From Chitinophagales bacterium (GTDB lineage Bacteria; Bacteroidota; Bacteroidia; Chitinophagales; Saprospiraceae): a DNA stretch of 64,000 bases. How positions within the stretch are numbered: the first letter of the stretch is position 1; every line of letters starts with the position of its first letter. Both the position numbers and the translations under genes were made by a program. Location: contig JAAFJY010000031.1 in assembly GCA_013299105.1 (NCBI GenBank), positions 1 to 64,000 on the forward strand, given 5' to 3'. Shown piece after piece: positions 21,005 through 32,703 of this stretch. Below the pieces are notes generated by a model that had not been told where the DNA came from, did no database searches, and saw only the letters and a program-made list of their open reading frames with translations.

Positions 21005-21757
21005 TCAATTGCCCTTTTGCGCCTTTTCTTTCAATTTATTGGCAAAAAAGTCGGGATGCAAGCCACATTCTTTTTTGTCGGTTCCGGCCCAACGGCCCTC
21101 GCGGCCCTCGCCTTTGACGGTACAATGGGTGCAACCAATCGAGCCGTAACCCTCAGCTTCGAGCGGGTGCTTGGGCAGTTGAAACGCACCCGACCAGTAA
21201 AGGTAGTCGCCTTCTTCTAGGTCGACAATGGGGTGGAATTTGAGCATGTCGCCCTGCATTTCAAAAATGCGCAGGTTGGAGCGGAAATCAGTTTGAAAAT
21301 GCATCAAACCCGAAATCCAGACCTTGTGCCTTGCCTTGATGGGCTCCAGCGGCACTACTTTATTGACGTTACAGCAAGACTTGTTGTCAAATTCCCAACG
21401 TTTTTCCTCCCGCGTTTTTGCATTTTCCACAGGATCAGGCAAGACATCAATCACGTTCAGCCCATACTGCTTGGTCAAGGCTTCTTTGTAAGCCAGGGTT
21501 TCGGGAAAGTGGTAAGTGGTGTCAATGAAATGAACCGGGTGCCCAGGGCGATTTTTGGAGATTACATACAACAAAAAGGCCGCACTGGCCCCAAAAGATG
21601 AGGTGAACAAAACCTCATCCTCGTCAAAAAAGTCGAACAAACGTTGAATGCGTTCTTCAAAACCAAGGGGCTTGAACACCTCGTTGAGGTAGTCCAAATC
21701 AAATTCCTCCTTTTCAAGCGGTATAGCGGCGGCGCTATTTGTTTGGGTTATGCTCAT
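21005..21757 (-). CDS. cysH: Phosphoadenylyl-/adenylyl-sulfate reductase (Fe-S type)
   Basis: 250 residues from the ATG giving MSITQTNSAAAIP; the frame runs 35 residues further upstream without similarity to the family. The PP-loop-like nucleotide site is VLFTSSFGASAAFLL. The 4Fe-4S ligands are the Cys pair SCCNVNK (128-129) and CTHCT (209, 212), typical of APS-reducing enzymes. The catalytic KKECGLH (C231) is near the C-terminus. It reduces activated sulfate to sulfite, the step before the sulfite reductase at 23503. The ATP-sulfurylase genes that must act first are not in this window. Confidence 0.93.
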   Translation of the reverse strand: MSITQTNSAAAIPLEKEEFDLDYLNEVFKPLGFEERIQRLFDFFDEDEVLFTSSFGASAAFLLYVISKNRPGHPVHFIDTTYHFPETLAYKEALTKQYGLNVIDVLPDPVENAKTREEKRWEFDNKSCCNVNKVVPLEPIKARHKVWISGLMHFQTDFRSNLRIFEMQGDMLKFHPIVDLEEGDYLYWSGAFQLPKHPLEAEGYGSIGCTHCTVKGEGREGRWAGTDKKECGLHPDFFANKLKEKAQKGN

Positions 21758-21965
21758 GGTTGTTTTCTTTTGCAAACGTGAGTGCTGTTTTTGACTTACG
21801 AATGACGACTTACAACTTACGAAGTGGGGGCTCGCTGGCAAGATTTTAGATTTATCGTACATTCGTTTTCACGCTTTGCCAATGGTTTTTGGCAAAATAA
21901 TACGCGGTTGAGAACTTAAACAAGATAAATCGCATTCGAGTTGACCCGAAGACATCATTCCGCGC

Positions 21966-22003
21966 CCTCTTTTCAACCTTTCAACACTTCAACCTTTCAA
22001 CTA
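21966..22003 (-). repeat. R3 8-9-nt tandem at the end of the siroheme dehydrogenase gene
   Basis: CCTCTTTTCAACCTTTC, AACACTTCAACCTTTC and AACTA: the array reaches the stop codon (CTA on the plus strand) of the gene beginning at 22642. Confidence 0.65.
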
Positions 22004-22642
22004 AAGCAGCCCATCCATGCATTTTCCACTGCAATGGCCCCCACAATCGCAGCCTTTCATGCCTTCAAGCAACACTGAAGTCACTCGATTGAGCAATCGG
22101 ACTTTGTTGGCAAAATCCCCGCCGAGGCGGTCGCGGATTTCGTTGAGCCTGGGCAGCAAGTCTTCCAACTCCGGCGGCAGAGCCTCTTCCATTACCTCGC
22201 GAAAACGCTTGGCGAACGTGGGCGATTTGCCATCGGTGGAGATGCCTACTTTGAGCGAACCACGGGTCACGATTGAGCCCAAGTAAAAATCGCAAAGTGC
22301 CGGCGTATCGGCCACATTGATCAACAGGCCCCTTTCTTTGGCAGCGGCTTGCACTGTGCGGTTAAGTTCGGGTATGTTGGTGGCCGCGATGACCAAATCA
22401 GCGGCTTCCAGGTCGCTGGGCTCAAACTCCTTTTTCACCAGTTTCACCCGGTGTTCAGGGTTTTGCTCCAGCAATGCAATGATTTCAGGATTCACTTCTG
22501 GGGCTACCATTGTAACCCTGGCCAGGGGGCTGCTCTTGAGAATGAACGACAATTTTTCGTGGCCCACCTCCCCTGCTCCAACAATCAGCAAATGCAATTC
22601 ATGGAGTTTCAAAAAAACGGGATATAGCTGATTGCGTTCCAT
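22001..22642 (-). CDS. Precorrin-2 dehydrogenase / sirohydrochlorin ferrochelatase, Met8-like
   Basis: 213 residues, matching the N-terminal half of CysG. It has the NAD-binding region (HELHLLIVGAGEVGHEKLSF, residues 11-30), AADLVIAATNIPELNRTV, then LINVADTPALCDFYLGSIVT and GISTDGKSPTFAKRFREVME. It oxidises precorrin-2 and inserts iron to make siroheme, the cofactor of the sulfite reductase encoded just upstream. The C-terminus carries an unusual metal-binding-like tail, CDCGGHCSGKC. It follows cobA on the same strand with a 76-base gap, in the sulfur assimilation run. Confidence 0.92.
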   Translation of the reverse strand: MERNQLYPVFLKLHELHLLIVGAGEVGHEKLSFILKSSPLARVTMVAPEVNPEIIALLEQNPEHRVKLVKKEFEPSDLEAADLVIAATNIPELNRTVQAAAKERGLLINVADTPALCDFYLGSIVTRGSLKVGISTDGKSPTFAKRFREVMEEALPPELEDLLPRLNEIRDRLGGDFANKVRLLNRVTSVLLEGMKGCDCGGHCSGKCMDGLL

Positions 22643-22718: not shown

Positions 22719-23483
22719 TTATAGGGTTTTGACTAGACATAGCGCATCCTGCTCTTGGTAAGCAGGATGTAAGGCCACCACCTCTCCTACCACAATGATG
22801 CCTGGCGAGCCCGCACCAGCGGCTTTCACTTTGTCGGCCAAGTCATTTACCCGGCCCAAAATGACTTTTTCATCCGGCGTTGAGCCGTTTTGAATGACCA
22901 TCGCTGGGGTATTTTCCTTGCCTTCTGCTTTGAACAATGCCATGATTTCTTCCAGCTTGCGCATCCCCATCAGGATCACCACAGTGGCGCTTGAACTGGC
23001 TGCCAGGGCGATGTCCTTCGCCAATTCCTGGCTTTGAGTAGTAGCGGTCAAAACCCAAAAGCTCTGGCTGATGCCCCGGCAAGTGACGGGTACCCCTTGC
23101 AAGCCAGGCAAAGCAGTCGAAGAACTCAAGCCGGGGATGACCTCCACTTCCACCCCAAACATATTGGCGTGGGCAATTTCCTCGTAGCCCCGACCAAAAA
23201 CGAAGGGGTCACCACCTTTCAGACGGACCACATGACCATAGTTGAGGGCGTGTTCCACCAACAACCAGTTGATGTCGTCTTGGCTGTGCGAGTGTTTGCC
23301 TGCGCGTTTGCCCACGTCTACCAAAACAGCAGCGGGGTTCACCATTTCCAGGATTTCCTCGCTCACCAGGGCGTCGTAGAGCACCGCATCGGCTTTTTGC
23401 AAGGCTTTCCAACCTTTGATGGTCAGTAGCTCAGGGTCGCCAGGACCTGCTCCAACCAGTGTTATTTTTGGCGTTTTGTTCAT
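22719..23483 (-). CDS. cobA: Uroporphyrinogen-III C-methyltransferase (SUMT)
   Basis: 254 residues. The tetrapyrrole methylase signatures are complete: KITLVGAGPGDPELLTIKGW (6-25), LVDVGKRAG (about 55), VVRLKGGDPFVFGRGYEE (85-102), VIPGLSSSTALPGLQGVPVT and the AdoMet-binding VVILMGMRKLEE. It makes precorrin-2 from uroporphyrinogen III, feeding the Met8-like enzyme next to it. It starts 19 bases after the sulfite reductase stop on the same strand, so the two are almost certainly co-transcribed. Confidence 0.95.
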   Translation of the reverse strand: MNKTPKITLVGAGPGDPELLTIKGWKALQKADAVLYDALVSEEILEMVNPAAVLVDVGKRAGKHSHSQDDINWLLVEHALNYGHVVRLKGGDPFVFGRGYEEIAHANMFGVEVEVIPGLSSSTALPGLQGVPVTCRGISQSFWVLTATTQSQELAKDIALAASSSATVVILMGMRKLEEIMALFKAEGKENTPAMVIQNGSTPDEKVILGRVNDLADKVKAAGAGSPGIIVVGEVVALHPAYQEQDALCLVKTL

Positions 23484-23502: not shown

Positions 23503-25656
23503 TTAAGCGCGGTAGTAATCCCCTACCACCAATTTGTCCTGGCCTCCTGCTTCGGCCAACTGGCTTTCGCGCTGGGCGATGATTGCTTCCACAAAAACCT
23601 TGGATTGAGCCACATAGTCTTGTGCAAACTGGGCCTCTGGCTCAAATTGGTTGATTTGCAAAACCATTTCCGGGAAATTGCTGGTTTTGCTAAACAAGCC
23701 TTTGTCAACGACCTGCGCCTGGAAGTCGTCGATGATGCCTTTTTGGGTATTGCATTTCACATCATGGCTCAGTAACAGGGCTTTGGCGGCTACCACAAAA
23801 GCACCGTAAGCATAATAAATGGCGTCGGCCCACTGGCCTTCTGCCAAAGCTTCGGCGGCGGCTTTGGTTTTGTCTTCGGCGTCTTTGAGGATCACCCCCA
23901 CCATGTCGAGCACCACCGCAGCGCATTCGCCTACTCCGATTTCTTGTTGGTAGTATTTGTCCTGGCCCCAGTCGAAATATTCTTCCTTGGTCAGGGTTTT
24001 TAGATCGGCCAAGGGCTTGAGCAAAGCATAAAAATACTTTTCACCCTGGCGCAGGAAATAATCGTTGTAGTATTCGCCTTCTTGTCCATTTTCGTCAAAA
24101 TCGTTCAACACGTAACGCACCACATCAGGCACGCGCTTGGTAGGCACTTTGACGATTTTATCGGCGATGAACCCACGACCATCCGGCGAAACACCACCGC
24201 CCAAAACCACTTGCATGGCAGGTACGACCAGTTCCCCACTTTTGAAGGAAGAGCCGTGAAAGCCCAGATTGGCGGCCATGTGCTGACCACAGGAGTTCAT
24301 GCAGCCGCTGATTTTAATTTTGAAGTATTGTTCGTCGATCAAATCAGGATACTCGCTGCGGATGATTTCTTCGATCACTTTGGCCAGACCTGTGCTATTG
24401 GTCACTCCTAGGGCGCAAGTGTCGGTGCCAGGGCAAGCCGTAACGTCGGCGGTAGAATCGGCACCAGGCAGGGCCAGACCCAATTGGTAAAGGCTATTGA
24501 ACCAATGTACCAGGGCTTCTGGGCGCACAAATTTGAGCAAAATGCCCTGGTTGATGGTAAAACGGATGTCGTCGGCTGCGTAATCTTTGATCAACGCAGC
24601 AAGGGCGCGGGCTTTGTCAGAAGGCAAGTCGCCCAAGATCACGCGGATGTAGACCCCATACCAGCCTTTTTGTTTTTGCTCAAACACGTTGGTGCGCTTC
24701 CACTCCTCAAACCAGTGCTGGTCCACCGGAGCGGCATCGGGAATGAGGCCCTGGCCGATCGGCGCTTGCTCTTCTACCAGGCTGCGGTCGATCGCTACTG
24801 ACTTGTTTTTCAGGGCTTTCCATTCTTTCTGCACAAGTTCCATCCAGGCTTCGAGGCCCAGTTTTTGGATCATGAACTTCATGCGGGCCTTCATGCGCTT
24901 TTCGCGCTCGCCGTAGCGGTCAAATACCCGCAAACCAGCCTCCATGAAAGGAATAATCTGGTCTTCAGGCAAAAACTCGTAAGCCGTCAAGCCTGTGATC
25001 GACTGGGCACCCAAGCCGCCGCCGACCAATACTTTGAAGCCCCGTTGCTCCACTCCGTCCACTGTTTGAATGCGGGGAATAAAGCCAAAGTCGTGGAAGT
25101 ACGTGAACGCAGAATCCTGCTCGCTGGAAGAAAAAGCAATTTTGATCTTGCGACCCATTTCCTGGCAAATCGGATTGCGCAAGAAATATTGAAAAGAAGC
25201 CTCCACGTAAGGCGAAACATCAAAAGGCTCGTTGGGGTCGATTCCAGCCAGCGGTGAAGCGGTGAAGTTGCGTACGGTATTGCCACAAGCTTCGCGGGCA
25301 GTGATGTTCTTTTGGGCCAGTTCGGTCCACACTTTGGGCGAGTTGGCCAGCTTGACGTAGTGCAACTGGATGTTCTGGCGGGTAGTGATGTGCAGGTTGC
25401 CCGTCGCATAACGGTCCGACACATCGGCAGTGCGGTACAACTGCTCGGCGGTGTATTTGCCGTAAGGAATTTTGATGCGAAACATCTGCACGCCCTCTTG
25501 TCTTTGGCCATACACCCCCCGTGTGAGGCGATAAAGTCGGAAGCGCTCAGGGTCTTCTTTGCCCCGGCGAAAAGCGTCGATTCTATTTTCGAGTTCCAGA
25601 ATGTCTATCTGGTCGGCAGCTTTTACATCGCTGAAATCAAAATTGTTGGCACTCAT
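23503..25656 (-). CDS. Ferredoxin-type sulfite reductase with C-terminal HEPN-like domain
   Basis: 717 residues from the ATG giving MSANNFDFSDVK. The frame continues 33 residues upstream, but that part is R1 repeat and not protein. Two ferredoxin-like and two siroheme-binding halves are present: YGKYTAEQLYRTADVSDRY, GNLHITTRQNIQLHYV (87-102) and RFTINQGILLKFV. The siroheme/4Fe-4S cysteines are ACPGTDTC (408, 414) and SGCMNSC (452, 456). Residues about 575-705 form an added helical domain (DAIYYAYGAFVVAAKALLL) resembling HEPN domains. Cofactor genes and cysH follow, so sulfite rather than nitrite is the likely substrate. It is the first gene after the putative cysteine attenuator. Confidence 0.9.
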   Translation of the reverse strand: MSANNFDFSDVKAADQIDILELENRIDAFRRGKEDPERFRLYRLTRGVYGQRQEGVQMFRIKIPYGKYTAEQLYRTADVSDRYATGNLHITTRQNIQLHYVKLANSPKVWTELAQKNITAREACGNTVRNFTASPLAGIDPNEPFDVSPYVEASFQYFLRNPICQEMGRKIKIAFSSSEQDSAFTYFHDFGFIPRIQTVDGVEQRGFKVLVGGGLGAQSITGLTAYEFLPEDQIIPFMEAGLRVFDRYGEREKRMKARMKFMIQKLGLEAWMELVQKEWKALKNKSVAIDRSLVEEQAPIGQGLIPDAAPVDQHWFEEWKRTNVFEQKQKGWYGVYIRVILGDLPSDKARALAALIKDYAADDIRFTINQGILLKFVRPEALVHWFNSLYQLGLALPGADSTADVTACPGTDTCALGVTNSTGLAKVIEEIIRSEYPDLIDEQYFKIKISGCMNSCGQHMAANLGFHGSSFKSGELVVPAMQVVLGGGVSPDGRGFIADKIVKVPTKRVPDVVRYVLNDFDENGQEGEYYNDYFLRQGEKYFYALLKPLADLKTLTKEEYFDWGQDKYYQQEIGVGECAAVVLDMVGVILKDAEDKTKAAAEALAEGQWADAIYYAYGAFVVAAKALLLSHDVKCNTQKGIIDDFQAQVVDKGLFSKTSNFPEMVLQINQFEPEAQFAQDYVAQSKVFVEAIIAQRESQLAEAGGQDKLVVGDYYRA

Positions 25657-25679: not shown

Positions 25680-25815
25680 TAAGTATTTGAGCTAAAATAA
25701 ACTGGACGTATTTGCTTTTGAGGTTTAGCAAAAAAAGAACACAACTTCCTTTCATCCAGTTGTTTTTCTTTTTTCACTAAACCCAAATCCGTCCACCTTA
25801 TTTTTTACGCTCCCT
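25680..25815 (-). repeat. R1 dispersed palindromic repeat, copy 3
   Basis: Full-length copy, differing from copy 2 at a handful of positions. It lies between the attenuator terminator (25846-25883) and the sulfite reductase start (25656), with its TAGCTCAAATACTT end facing the gene, as in copies 2 and 4. It would therefore be transcribed as part of the operon leader and could fold into a long hairpin. Confidence 0.85.
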
Positions 25816-25845
25816 AAGGCAGCTTTTTATTTGTTCTTGGGTACG

Positions 25846-25883
25846 AAAAAGCCCTGTCGGCAAGTGATTTCCGGCAGGGCTTT
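25846..25883 (-). terminator. Attenuator terminator in the sulfite reductase leader
   Basis: On the minus strand the stem is AAAGCCCTGCCGG (25883-25871) with CCGACAGGGCTTT (25858-25846), 13 positions with one G-U or mismatch, a loop of about 12, and a T tract after the stem. It lies 190 bases before the sulfite reductase start, so it cannot be a terminator of a preceding gene; no gene precedes it on this strand apart from the leader peptide. Confidence 0.8.
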
Positions 25884-25931
25884 CGAAGTAACTTGCTCTC
25901 TAGTTCCTTTCAAAAAATGCGAGCCCCTGCC
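25846..25931 (-). promoter_or_regulatory. Putative cysteine-responsive transcription attenuator
   Basis: Immediately after the leader-peptide stop codon (four bases) the minus strand reads GGCAGGGGCT (25931-25922). This is complementary to AGCCCTGCC, the 5' arm of the following terminator, with one bulged G. Two folds therefore exclude each other: antiterminator (25931-25922 with the 5' arm) or terminator (5' arm with 3' arm). A ribosome at the leader stop codon would cover the antiterminator strand and allow termination. A ribosome stalled at the Cys codons would leave it free and allow read-through. This is the classical layout of amino-acid attenuation; the Cys specificity is inferred. Confidence 0.7.
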
Positions 25932-25935
25932 TTCA

Positions 25936-26025
25936 TTAGACAACAACATTTGGTATGACGACTTGGCAGAGACTTGAACATCTTGAATGTTTATGTGGGT
26001 AAAAGCGCAATTTATTCGCTTTCAT
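25936..26025 (-). CDS. 29-residue Cys-containing leader peptide of the sulfur operon
   Basis: On the minus strand the frame starts ATG at 26025 and ends TAA at 25936. It encodes MKANKLRFYPHKHSRCSSLC followed by QVVIPNVVV. The two Cys codons (16 and 20) lie 9-13 codons before the stop. The ATG is only a few bases downstream of a good promoter (26030-26060), so the message may be nearly leaderless. It is too short for a usual gene and is followed by the antiterminator/terminator pair, which marks it as a regulatory peptide translated to sense charged tRNA-Cys. It is the closest reading frame upstream of the sulfite reductase. Confidence 0.7.
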   Translation of the reverse strand: MKANKLRFYPHKHSRCSSLCQVVIPNVVV

Positions 26026-26029
26026 GGTG

Positions 26030-26060
26030 CAAGTATAGGGGCATTTGGCATGATTCGCAA
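26030..26060 (-). promoter_or_regulatory. Promoter of the sulfur assimilation operon
   Basis: On the minus strand TTG (26060-26058), 20 bases, then TATACTTG (26037-26030), close to the Bacteroidota consensus TTG-N19-21-TAnnTTTG with one mismatch. Transcription would begin next to the leader peptide ATG. Confidence 0.6.
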
Positions 26061-26302: not shown

Positions 26303-29300
26303 TCACTCCCGCAGCACCACAAACCTACCACTAAACACCACCCGCCGTTCGCTCAGTGCCCTTAAGAAATAAGTGCCCGCTGGCAAGTCTTTCAACGAAA
26401 ACTGCTGCAACAGCTTTGGCCCGGAATCCACCACTTGGCTGCGCAGCACTTTGCCATCCAGGTTTTGAATTTGCAAAAGCAGGGTTTTGCCTTGTGACAA
26501 TTCGGCTTCCAGCCACAAGTGATCTTGGGCGGGGTTCGGGTACAATTTCACGGTTTTGACCAAATCAGGGTCCAAAATAGCGCTGGTCATCAGCACGACT
26601 GTTTCGGTTTGGCGGCAATTGCGGTTGTCGGTAATGGTCAAAGTGTAGTTGCCCGCTGCCAGGCCAAGGATTTGATTCGTCGTAGCGCCATTCGACCACT
26701 GGTAGCGGTAAGGCTGGGTGCCGCCGCGTACATTGGCCCGGATCGAGCCGTCGTTTTGGCCAGCTTTGGGGCGCAAAAGGTCAAAAGAGGTTTGGATGGG
26801 CAGTGGTTGTACCACATTATAAGGTATCACCCTGGTGCAGTTGTCGGCATCGCTCAAGTTGAGGGTGTAAGTGCCCGCCCTGAGCTGCTGGATCCTGCGG
26901 GTATCGATGCCAAAGGTTTGGCCTTGTGGATTTTGCCAAGACCAACGGTAAGGCCCCTTGCCCCCGCTGATGCCAATGGCAATGGCTCCGTTGTTGCCAC
27001 CATTGCAAGTTATTTCGCTCAAGGTATCCAAAACTGTAAGCCCTTGGGTACTCGGCTCTCGGATGAGGAAGGCTGGGAAGGAAATTTTGCAAGAATCAGC
27101 ATCAGTCACTTGCAATTGATAAGTCCCAGCCCGTGCATTGTTCAAAATCCGGCTGCCCGTGCGGCCATTCCAGGCATAGCGATAAGGCTGACGCCCTCCC
27201 TCCACGGTTACAGTGATGGAACCACTGGCGTCGCCCTGGCAGCGGATGTCGGTCACGCTGGAACTGGCCAAACGAATCGGTGCGGAGGCGGCCAAAGGAC
27301 CTACTTCCAAGGTATCCAGGCAGATGCGTGAGTCAGTGACCACCACATAGAAAGTACCTGAGCCGACCCCAATCAGGTCTTCAGTAACTGACACTTGTCG
27401 ATTGTTGCTTTTTTGGTACCAATTGAAAGCATAAGGCGGGGTGCCGCCCCTTGGCGTAATGAAGATGGCCCCATTGCTGAGATCACCACAGCGTAGATTG
27501 CGCACACTGTCGCGGCGGATATTGAGCAAGCTGGGTTCATTGATGCTCCTGGTTTCGGAACTCACTTGACAGCCTTTTGAATCGACAATCAAGACCCGGT
27601 AGTCGTTGTCTACGGGCAGGTTCCTGATGACTGCTGTAGCCTGATTGGTCACAATTGGCGTACCAAAATTGTTGAAGAAAAAGGTATATGGAGCCAACCC
27701 ACCCGTGATGGTGGCCGATACTTCCCCATTTCGCTGGCCAAAACAACTGATGTCGCGGGTTTTAAATTCGAGCAGCTTGATCGGTTCACCTGAATCCCGC
27801 AATTTGAGCAGCGGAGTAGCCACCGAACAACCATTGGCGTCGCTGACTGTGACGTTGTAATTGCCCGATACCACGTTGGCCAGGGCCGAAGTAGTGGCCC
27901 CATTGCTCCAGCGGTAAGTGTATGGCCCAATTCCGCCAGATACTACCGCCCTGATCGTATTGAAACGCGAGGCATCACAAGTCGTGTTGTTGACTTGGGT
28001 TTGGGTTTCAGCTCGCAGGGGGGTAGGTTGGGTAATTTTAAAATCCCCTGTGATCGGGCAACCATTGCCATCCGTGATGAAGGCGCGGTAATCGCCAGCC
28101 TTGAGTTTGTAGGCGTTGGGCTGGTTAGATTTGCTGCCTTCCCAAGCCACCCGATAGGGCCTGCGCCCGCCACTTATGGCCAATTCGATGAAGCCCGTGG
28201 AATCGCCGCTGCACAAGACCTGCCCAATGCCTGCCACCTGGTAAGTGATCGCACTGGGTTGTTCGAGTTTGATCGAATCGCGGACCAATTTACAGCCCAA
28301 ACGGTCCGTGATGGTAATGCCATACAAGCCACTTGGCAGGTTGAAGCGGTCTTCCACGCTGGTGCCATTTTCCCATTGGAATCGAATGGGTGGATTGTCA
28401 ATGCGCAACATTTGCACGTTCACGAAGCCATCGGCAGTGTTGCTACAAGTGGGTGAAGAAATGGCAAAATTGGCCTGGATGGGTTGGGTAGATGCCGCTA
28501 TAGATATGGTCGTGTCCAAAGAGCAGCCCAGGGCGTCGCGAATATTGACACTGTGCTTCCCTACCCCTAGTCCGGCTGTAAAAGCAGTCGTATCTCCATT
28601 GCTCCAGCGAAAACGAAATGGAGCTTGGCCCTGTGGCCGCAGGTTGATGCCTCCGGTAGCCAGACCCAGGCAAGCAGGTGGTGCAATTTGGGGCCTCGCA
28701 CGGATCCCCGCCAAAGCACTCAACCCAACTTTGATCGAGTCGGTAGTACAGCCATTGCGATCCGTCACCAATGCAGCGTAAGTCCCTACTTTGAGCGAGC
28801 GCAAGTTGGCAGTCGTAGCCCCATTGGTCCAGGCAAAACGATAGGGTGCAGTGCCCCCAGATACAGCAGTAGTGATCTGCCCAGTGGTATCCCCCAGGCA
28901 TTTGGGGGCTGCACTTTGTACGATGCGCGCCCGCAAAGGCTCTGCGGAGCCGATGATGGCATTGAATGGAATTGAACAACCCGCTGCATCGGTAACAGTA
29001 AGCGAATACGAACCCGAAGGCAGGTTTCGCAAAACCGGACCAGCCAAACCATTGGTCCAATTGTATTGGTAAGGAGCCGTCCCTCCGCGCCCGCTGACCC
29101 GCAATGAACCATCTGAGCGGCCCGCGCAAGTCACCGCTTTGGTAGAATCGACTACTGCTGTAAGCAAGGGTGGCCCACTTAATTCAAAGCTCCGCGTTTG
29201 TGTACAACCACTGGCATCGGTGACCGTGACGGTGTAAGCGCCCCGGCTTAGGTTGAACAAGTCTTCCGTGTTTTGTCCACTGGACCAGCGGTATTGGTAA

Positions 29301-32329: not shown

Positions 32330-32703
32330 GGTCGGAACAAGTGGTTCGTTTTTGGGAAAATTGTTAGTAGTTGAGCGGTCAAAAAGCCGCTTCGTGTCGA
32401 ATTGTGCTGCTAAAATAGCTAAAAATGGGATTGCCCTCGAAAAAAATGAAAGCTTGGTCGGCTAAGGGAGCGTAAAAAAATAAGGTGGACAGGTTTGGGT
32501 TTCGTGAAAAAAGAAAAGCAACTGACTGGAAGGAAGTTGTGTTCTTTTTTTTGCGAAACCTCAAAAACAAAGATGTCCATCTTATTTTAGCTCAAATACT
32601 AAATGGTGTATCTCAAACAATCATTCAAGGCTGGCTGACAATTTGATCTCCTCTGCCAACCCTTTGCTACCTCAAGCTCGTCTAGCCAGAAAAATTGCTC
32701 GAC
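32330..32703. other. Divergent intergenic region with R1 copy 4
   Basis: Separates the minus-strand adhesin from the plus-strand lipoprotein pair. Apart from R1 (32464-32603) it holds plain sequence in which I see no clear promoter. Confidence 0.5.
32464..32603 (+). repeat. R1 dispersed palindromic repeat, copy 4
   Basis: Full-length and slightly diverged, starting AAGGGAGCGTAAAAAAATAA and ending TTATTTTAGCTCAAATACTA. Its arms are the most symmetrical of the four (GTTTCGTGAAAAAAGAAAAG opposite CTTTTTTTTGCGAAAC). The TAGCTCAAATACT end faces the lipoprotein gene at 32704. Confidence 0.85.

Follow-up and report, generated by a model that had tools for sequence, protein, structure and literature searches.

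Leader-peptide attenuators of the trp, his and leu type are classical systems. These systems, for which PMC1183508 presents a model, combine a run of codons for the product amino acid with protector, antiterminator and terminator strands ahead of an operon of the same pathway. The leaders reported in this study share the codon run, the antiterminator and terminator strands and the position before such an operon, and a protector strand is present in the leader analysed in most detail. However, our leaders belong to Bacteroidota, carry Cys with interspersed Met and often consist of two complete units in series. Two leader ORFs per leader RNA are also found in Salmonella mgtCBR, where mgtM and mgtP are tandem attenuators for different signals, ATP and proline (excerpt of PMC3641672), whereas both Bacteroidota units contain Cys runs. 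A leader with tandem Cys codons and an intrinsic terminator, uORFC-8-2, was predicted upstream of cysS in Rhodobacterales (excerpt of PMC8632094). The leader in our window, by which we mean the whole stretch of 64,000 nucleotides analysed, likewise has Cys codons and an intrinsic terminator. By the description in that excerpt, uORFC-8-2 is set apart by its target cysS, its two tandem Cys at about positions 14-15 and its alphaproteobacterial hosts. In the window, the target is a sulfite reductase operon and the Cys codons are at positions 12-14.

Polycysteine leaderless short ORFs of mycobacteria are reportedly the subject of Canestrari 2020, going by its title. That work is cited in a section of PMC13236596. 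An excerpt of PMC1262725 describes cys leader peptides of Actinobacteria; in Mycobacterium, terminator hairpins were not found to be conserved, and Rho was suggested as one possibility. The mycobacterial and actinobacterial leaders resemble ours in having Cys runs before cysteine-pathway operons, and a leaderless start is likely in Sphingobacteriaceae too. The Bacteroidota leaders differ in that an intrinsic terminator and an antiterminator are present. In the window, the conserved leader ORF starts about 43 nt past the presumed transcription start, and an intrinsic terminator follows. Within Bacteroidota, leader-peptide attenuation was suspected for amino-acid operons of Flavobacterium psychrophilum (part of PMC9723704), and leader-peptide-like sORFs were reported in Bacteroides (part of PMC7366714). 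No Cys leader attenuator of Bacteroidota was found among the top-ranked results of broad queries of open-licence PMC full text, including the available parts of PMC4833913 and PMC2965389. This agrees with the earlier note on this DNA, which knew of no described system of this kind in the phylum.

The source genome is 7.67 Mb, with the whole window on one contig, and all features of the operon and its leader are on the minus strand. The first gene (23503..25656, start set at MSANNFDF) encodes a sulfite reductase-type protein with the Pfam domains NIR_SIR and NIR_SIR_ferr. Since all NCBIfam models listed for this protein scored below their cut-offs, the name sulfite reductase operon was taken from the domains and the neighbours. 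These are cobA, encoding uroporphyrinogen-III C-methyltransferase (22719..23483, TIGR01469), a met8-like gene of the siroheme synthase N-terminal type (22001..22642, TIGR01470) and cysH, encoding PAPS/APS reductase (21005..21862, NF002537), each scoring above the cut-off. In 68 loci where the DNA extended over 4 kb past the start, same-strand homologues of cobA were found downstream in 59, of met8 in 54 and of cysH in 38, the last count being affected by cysH positions that lay partly beyond the fetched DNA. The first operon protein was 80-81% identical in four same-genus genomes and 63-65% identical in the best-ranked named relatives (best 80 of 583), which are Saprospiraceae MAGs. The frame of the upstream gene ends at 26303. 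A T-tract hairpin at about 26262-26223, just downstream of that gene, probably terminates it and is thus distinct from the leader terminator.

The leader region begins with TTG-N20-TATACTTG (26030..26060), which we take, on consensus grounds, to be a Bacteroidota-type -33/-7 promoter. It is present as the earlier note had described, and it is kept, with the following CAC, in the window and the four same-genus genomes. Two short frames follow. One is the conserved leader ORF MFKSLPSRHTKCCCLMKAGARIF* (25910..25981), in which TGT TGT TGT encodes Cys 12-14 (25940..25948). The other has 29 codons, MKANKLRFYPHKHSRCSSLCQVVIPNVVV* (25936..26025), with Cys at 16 and 20 and a GTG start 4 nt past the -7 box. 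Strand 1, the protector AGTCTCTGCC (25965..25974), was seen in the window and pairs with strand 2 over 10 pairs in the full-leader fold. Strand 2, the antiterminator GGCAGGGGCT (25922..25931), lies four bases past the stop of the 29-codon frame and is complementary to the terminator 5' arm AGCCCTGCC(GG) (25881-25871), again in agreement with the note. The terminator consists of strand 3, AGCCCTGCCGG (25871..25881), strand 4, CCGACAGGGCT (25850..25860), and a T tract (25846..25849). Its 13-bp stem was confirmed as 10+3 pairs, with a fold energy of -18.9 kcal/mol when the flanking pairs are included, and otherwise -15.8 kcal/mol. Two elements were absent from the earlier note, namely strand 1 (25974-25965) and a dispersed palindromic repeat (about 138 bp), one copy of which (25680..25814) lies between the terminator and the operon and is missing there in the four relatives. 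The exact pattern GGCAGGGG-N20-80-GCCCTGCC occurred once in the window genome. No Rfam match at the gathering threshold (T-box, SAM or other riboswitch) was obtained in the window or 10 relatives; below that threshold, only two miRNA models matched, both at the palindromic repeat and with scores far short of their cut-offs.

The duplex energies in the window were -18.2 kcal/mol for 1:2, -16.7 kcal/mol for 2:3 and -18.9 kcal/mol for 3:4. As had been claimed, the 2:3 and 3:4 pairings are mutually exclusive, strand 3 being common to both. The ribosome-free leader folded into 1:2 plus 3:4, that is, the terminated form (z -2.3). Ribosome stalling was modelled by removing all RNA behind the ribosome, with the front edge 11 nt past the A site and the transcript ending at strand 3. 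In this model, a stall at Cys 12 or Cys 13 gave the 2:3 hairpin (-20.0 and -20.3 kcal/mol), a stall at Cys 14 gave a weaker one (-13.4 kcal/mol), and the hairpin was lost once the ribosome stood at the stop codon (-1.8 kcal/mol). Simple ribosome-sized blocking of the full leader at equilibrium left 3:4 in place in every state tried, including the stalled ribosome; the attenuator model therefore needs a co-transcriptional order of events. When the transcript ended at strand 3, simple blocking yielded 2:3 only with the ribosome stalled at Cys 12; at Cys 13 and Cys 14 it did not, as the program still allows strands 1 and 2 to pair around the ribosome there. Blocking by itself did not reproduce the switch, and removal of the RNA behind the ribosome did. 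As the classical model also assumes, the outcome thus depends on the order in which the strands are made and on how much RNA the ribosome occludes by its bulk.

We then compared the two candidate frames across the genus. Besides the promoter with its CAC, an alignment of the window with the four relatives was constant in GGCAGGGG of strand 2 (5/5 sequences), AGCCCTGCCGG of strand 3 (5/5) and GACAGGGC of strand 4 (5/5) with the Ts after it, and the stretch between promoter and leader varied freely. The poly-Cys leader was homologous in 4/4 same-genus genomes, where it reads MLAISKPLSTLNNPMMGCCCACCCSRLAGV (L011), MLATSKPLSTLNNPTMGCCCACCCSRLAGV (L012), ...GCCRACCCSRMAGV (L013) and MLVISNPLLTLASPMMGCCCACCFSRSAGV (L010); Cys runs are thus present in all four and in the same frame as in the window, whose version reads KCCCLM. 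In the window, the leader contains no more than 3 Cys codons, and its start codon is not that of the relatives. The leader start appears to be shifted by three codons, as the window ATG (25981) aligns with the fourth leader codon of the relatives.

The earlier note had assigned the leader role to the 29-codon frame at 26025, and this frame, probably leaderless, might be the sensor in the window genome through Cys 16 and 20. Folding bore out the geometry proposed for it: strand 2 would lie under a ribosome that had reached the stop codon of this frame, and 2:3 can still form when the ribosome is stalled at the Cys codons. Its start codon is also placed suggestively. Across the loci, a start codon exactly 4 nt past TANN(T/C)TTG was found in 20 cases, with the next commonest spacing at 4 cases, and 10 of the 20 starts head a Cys-pair frame, nine in Sphingobacteriales (L073, L077, L085, L092, L095, L096, L101, L105 and L107) and one in Phaeodactylibacter (L055). 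In the window genus, the start codon of the 29-codon frame occupies this 4-nt position. However, the start at the same position in all four same-genus relatives opens a frame of 4 codons without Cys (MKES, MKSR, MKSH and MKSR), whereas the CCC frame is conserved with Cys runs. Two Cys codons in such a frame are also ordinary: of 204 ATG frames that are 20-40 codons long and lack a Cys pair, taken from the upstream regions of set 1 (the 91 loci described below), 40 had at least 2. As both frames fit the same ribosome and hairpin geometry, the 29-codon frame is disfavoured by conservation only; we set it aside and consider it unlikely to be the sensor. If the window element is a Cys attenuator, the CCC frame at 25981-25910 is very probably its sensor. 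The elements noted earlier thus all exist in the sequence, and the system exceeds chance, but the leader assigned to it was probably the wrong one. Conservation in relatives, on which the note had made its reading depend, was found for the system and not for the 29-codon frame.

The upstream regions of sulfite reductase loci were surveyed in two sets. Set 1 comprised 96 loci, 16 plus the best 80 of 583 confirmed relatives, from which 3 duplicates and 2 upstream-poor loci were dropped to leave 91; it includes the window and its genus, and its loci are not phylogenetically independent. Under a strict rule (3 or more Cys within 6 codons of a short frame that opens with ATG and lies within 420 nt upstream), a poly-Cys leader was found in 46/91 loci and none in the other 45. 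The same rule gave 0/91 on the reverse strand, 0/63 at 1.6-2 kb upstream and a mean of 2.1 (maximum 5) in 30 rounds of dinucleotide shuffling. With 4 Cys in 5 codons, which excludes the window itself, the count was 35/91 compared to 0 on the reverse strand, 0 far upstream and a mean of 0.1 in shuffles. The loosest rule (2 Cys in 3 codons) was much less clean, with 52/91 compared to 9/91, 6/63 and 12.9, respectively. In the last 620 nt of the set-1 regions there were 67 leaders, with a median of 6 and a maximum of 11 Cys codons each. Both Cys codons were used (267 TGT and 144 TGC), so the residue and not a DNA repeat appears to be kept. A strict promoter, TANNTTTG, was near 16/67 leaders compared to 7/67 on the reverse strand, a weak signal.

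An intrinsic terminator followed 61/67 leaders at an energy cut of -8 kcal/mol, a few of the assigned hairpins (e.g. L060 and L062) being doubtful. The distance from the last Cys codon to the terminator had a median of 58 nt (IQR 51-64). The terminator stems vary by locus (e.g. AGCCTTTCCGG, ACCCTTCTTC and AGCCCTGCC), and in the better cases the upstream strand tracks them. The mean 2:3 duplex was -10.57 kcal/mol within the own locus, compared to -7.92 kcal/mol when strand 3 was taken from another locus (the best of 200 such exchanges gave -8.65) and -7.01 kcal/mol with a shuffled spacer. In set 1, 28 duplexes reached -10 kcal/mol or lower, and the pairing was weak at several loci, e.g. L016 (-3.9 kcal/mol), L034 (-1.1) and L038 (-4.7). 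Because the conservation, the strand specificity and the between-locus swap test all exceeded their controls, the system represents more than chance.

Leaders with up to 11 Cys in a run seem to go beyond what codon sensing needs, and Cys-rich peptides could bind metal. It is therefore conceivable that the signal is metal, oxidant or thiol stress, sensed by the Cys-rich peptide itself or by ribosome arrest during its translation, and not the charging of tRNA-Cys. However, judged by eye, families have the Cys (and Met) codons in common but not the peptide sequence on either side of the clusters; the downstream pathway yields cysteine, and the distance from the Cys codons to the terminator is fairly constant. 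We regard this explanation as improbable.

A terminator was present in the last 200 nt of 39/45 loci with a strict leader compared to 10/46 without one, and in 8 of these 10 there is a Cys-pair leader, one slightly past the distance limit (L034) or leaders that start at GTG/TTG (L045); in the other two, L070 and L100, no Cys leader of these weaker kinds was found. Intergenic terminators are common, but this association, with exceptions that mostly have a weaker, differently started or more distant Cys leader, and the separate hairpin about 380 nt earlier that is likely the upstream gene's own terminator, make it highly improbable that the window hairpin is a mere gene-end or small-RNA terminator beside an incidental poly-Cys frame.

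Set 2 consisted of 295 genomes sampled evenly across the class, avoiding a choice by similarity to the window; the gene was found in 68 and upstream DNA was obtained from 64. The four left out were the window genome, one genome already in set 1 (G055) and two with broken matches (G567 and G635). A strict leader was present in 23/64 loci, compared to 2/64 on the reverse strand, and in 14/24 families; 41/64 loci had none. Terminators accompanied 20/23 loci with a leader and 13/41 without. A looser rule (CC, CMC or CSC, with an ATG or GTG start) was applied to these 13 terminator-bearing loci and to 18 of the 28 terminator-less ones. It found a leader in 7/13 and in 0/18, respectively. On the reverse strand it matched at 5/31 of the same loci, and single loose leaders are therefore weak evidence. 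Some lineages have the gene, and no leader was found before it: no poly-Cys leader was detected in Neolewinella/Lewinella (L020, L037, L039, L041-L044 and L052), and none in the Larkinella, Spirosoma and Arcicella genomes.

Taken with these comparative data, the window element is very probably a trp-type attenuator that reads charged tRNA-Cys and controls the sulfite reductase-cobA-met8-cysH operon. The regulatory logic, signal and target proposed in the earlier note are thus strongly supported on comparative grounds. We suggest the following mechanism. RNA polymerase would start near 26024, and a ribosome would begin the leader at 25981. When cysteine is short, the ribosome would wait at the TGT run (25948-25940), keeping strand 1 unpaired and strand 2 free. 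The free strand 2 (25931-25922) would then pair with strand 3 (25881-25871), so that no terminator forms and the operon is transcribed. When cysteine is plentiful, the ribosome would reach the stop codon (25912-25910) and cover strand 2, and the 3:4 terminator would stop transcription. Without a ribosome, 1:2 would pair and 3:4 would terminate. The charging of tRNA-Met is possibly also read by the window attenuator.

Two separate poly-Cys leaders in series were found in 21 set-1 loci, and in 20 of these each leader had its own terminator. Six set-2 loci (L205, L208, L209, L212, L219 and L245) also had two leaders. Doubled units were seen in many Saprospiria and in some of the Cytophagales; a single leader is present in the window and in the other members of its genus. 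Two units in series may be two attenuators for one signal.

Met codons were counted in the 67 set-1 leaders and in 28 of the 29 set-2 leaders (L241 was left out). Among the non-Cys residues inside the Cys clusters, Met made up 10/61 in set 1 and 23/37 in set 2, and in the three codons after the cluster 21/182 and 15/79, respectively. In the set-1 regions, short ATG frames other than the leaders gave a background of 277/13232 (2.1%). Because the samples are related species, p-values for this enrichment are overstated. Met ahead of the cluster (37/195 in set 1 and 29/82 in set 2) was not counted as evidence, as it may be the start codon.

In this promoter type, transcription presumably starts at the position 4 nt past the -7 box. 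If so, the leaders of the ten loci with a Cys-pair frame at that spacing have no 5' UTR, and a leaderless start is likely in Sphingobacteriaceae. We propose tentatively, at somewhat less than even odds, that sulfur assimilation in Bacteroidota is governed by an attenuator that reads Cys and Met together. In many lineages there would be two units for the same signal, both ribosomes would have to stall, and the switch would be steeper and low in leakage; in Sphingobacteriaceae, the leader peptide would be made from the very 5' end of the RNA.

The kind of mechanism is known. What appears new is that Cys codons occur together with an intrinsic terminator in this phylum, along with the doubling and the admixture of Met. 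If our reading is true, it would provide a testable mechanism for how a large phylum regulates its assimilation of sulfate and sulfite, add Bacteroidota to the groups in which Cys-type attenuation uses intrinsic terminators, and offer natural pairs of same-signal attenuators in series for measuring how cascaded attenuation shapes the response.

Other cysteine genes were searched for Cys-rich ORFs of any kind in 16 genomes. Such ORFs preceded cysS at 2/17 loci, cysD at 0/14 and cysE at 1/15, counts that are approximate because the match start was taken at a fixed flank. None was accepted as a leader. No terminator lay within 500 nt upstream of the match at L154 and L182. At L151 (cysS of the window genome), the ORF is apparently internal to the preceding gene, and the hairpins near it were not counted as a leader terminator. 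Thus, in the 16 genomes no convincing Cys leader was found before cysS, cysD or cysE; it was found before the sulfite reductase gene only. In a phylum-wide pattern search, (TGY)6 occurred in 216/395 genomes and its backward control was visibly rarer. At 7 of the 12 loci inspected (of 30 returned), the run was antisense inside a longer ORF, and the bare pattern is therefore not evidence.

Several minor observations were made. At L136, L138 and L140 (family f24), a presumed dioxygenase-like gene, with an SDR-like gene upstream, has next to it a frame containing 9, 6 and 7 Cys codons, respectively. The frames of L136 and L140 end in a Cys run 55 and 54 nt before this gene, and that of L138 overlaps its start. 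These are possibly another Cys-responsive leader. At L122 (family f20), a frame with seven Cys codons at its end has its stop 63 nt upstream of a presumed cysS-like gene.

The repeat copy between terminator and operon folds into a long hairpin. Copies in the window are at 25814-25680, 20795-20661, 32462-32600 and 124-231, with 88-98% identity among those compared. At least 42 matches including the query were obtained, a lower bound because 40 of 400 candidate places were scored. Upstream of the promoter, an AT-rich block (26125-26065) is similar in L011-L013 (GGGACATATGAATATATGTTCAAG... in the relatives), and it is possibly a regulator site or a second promoter.
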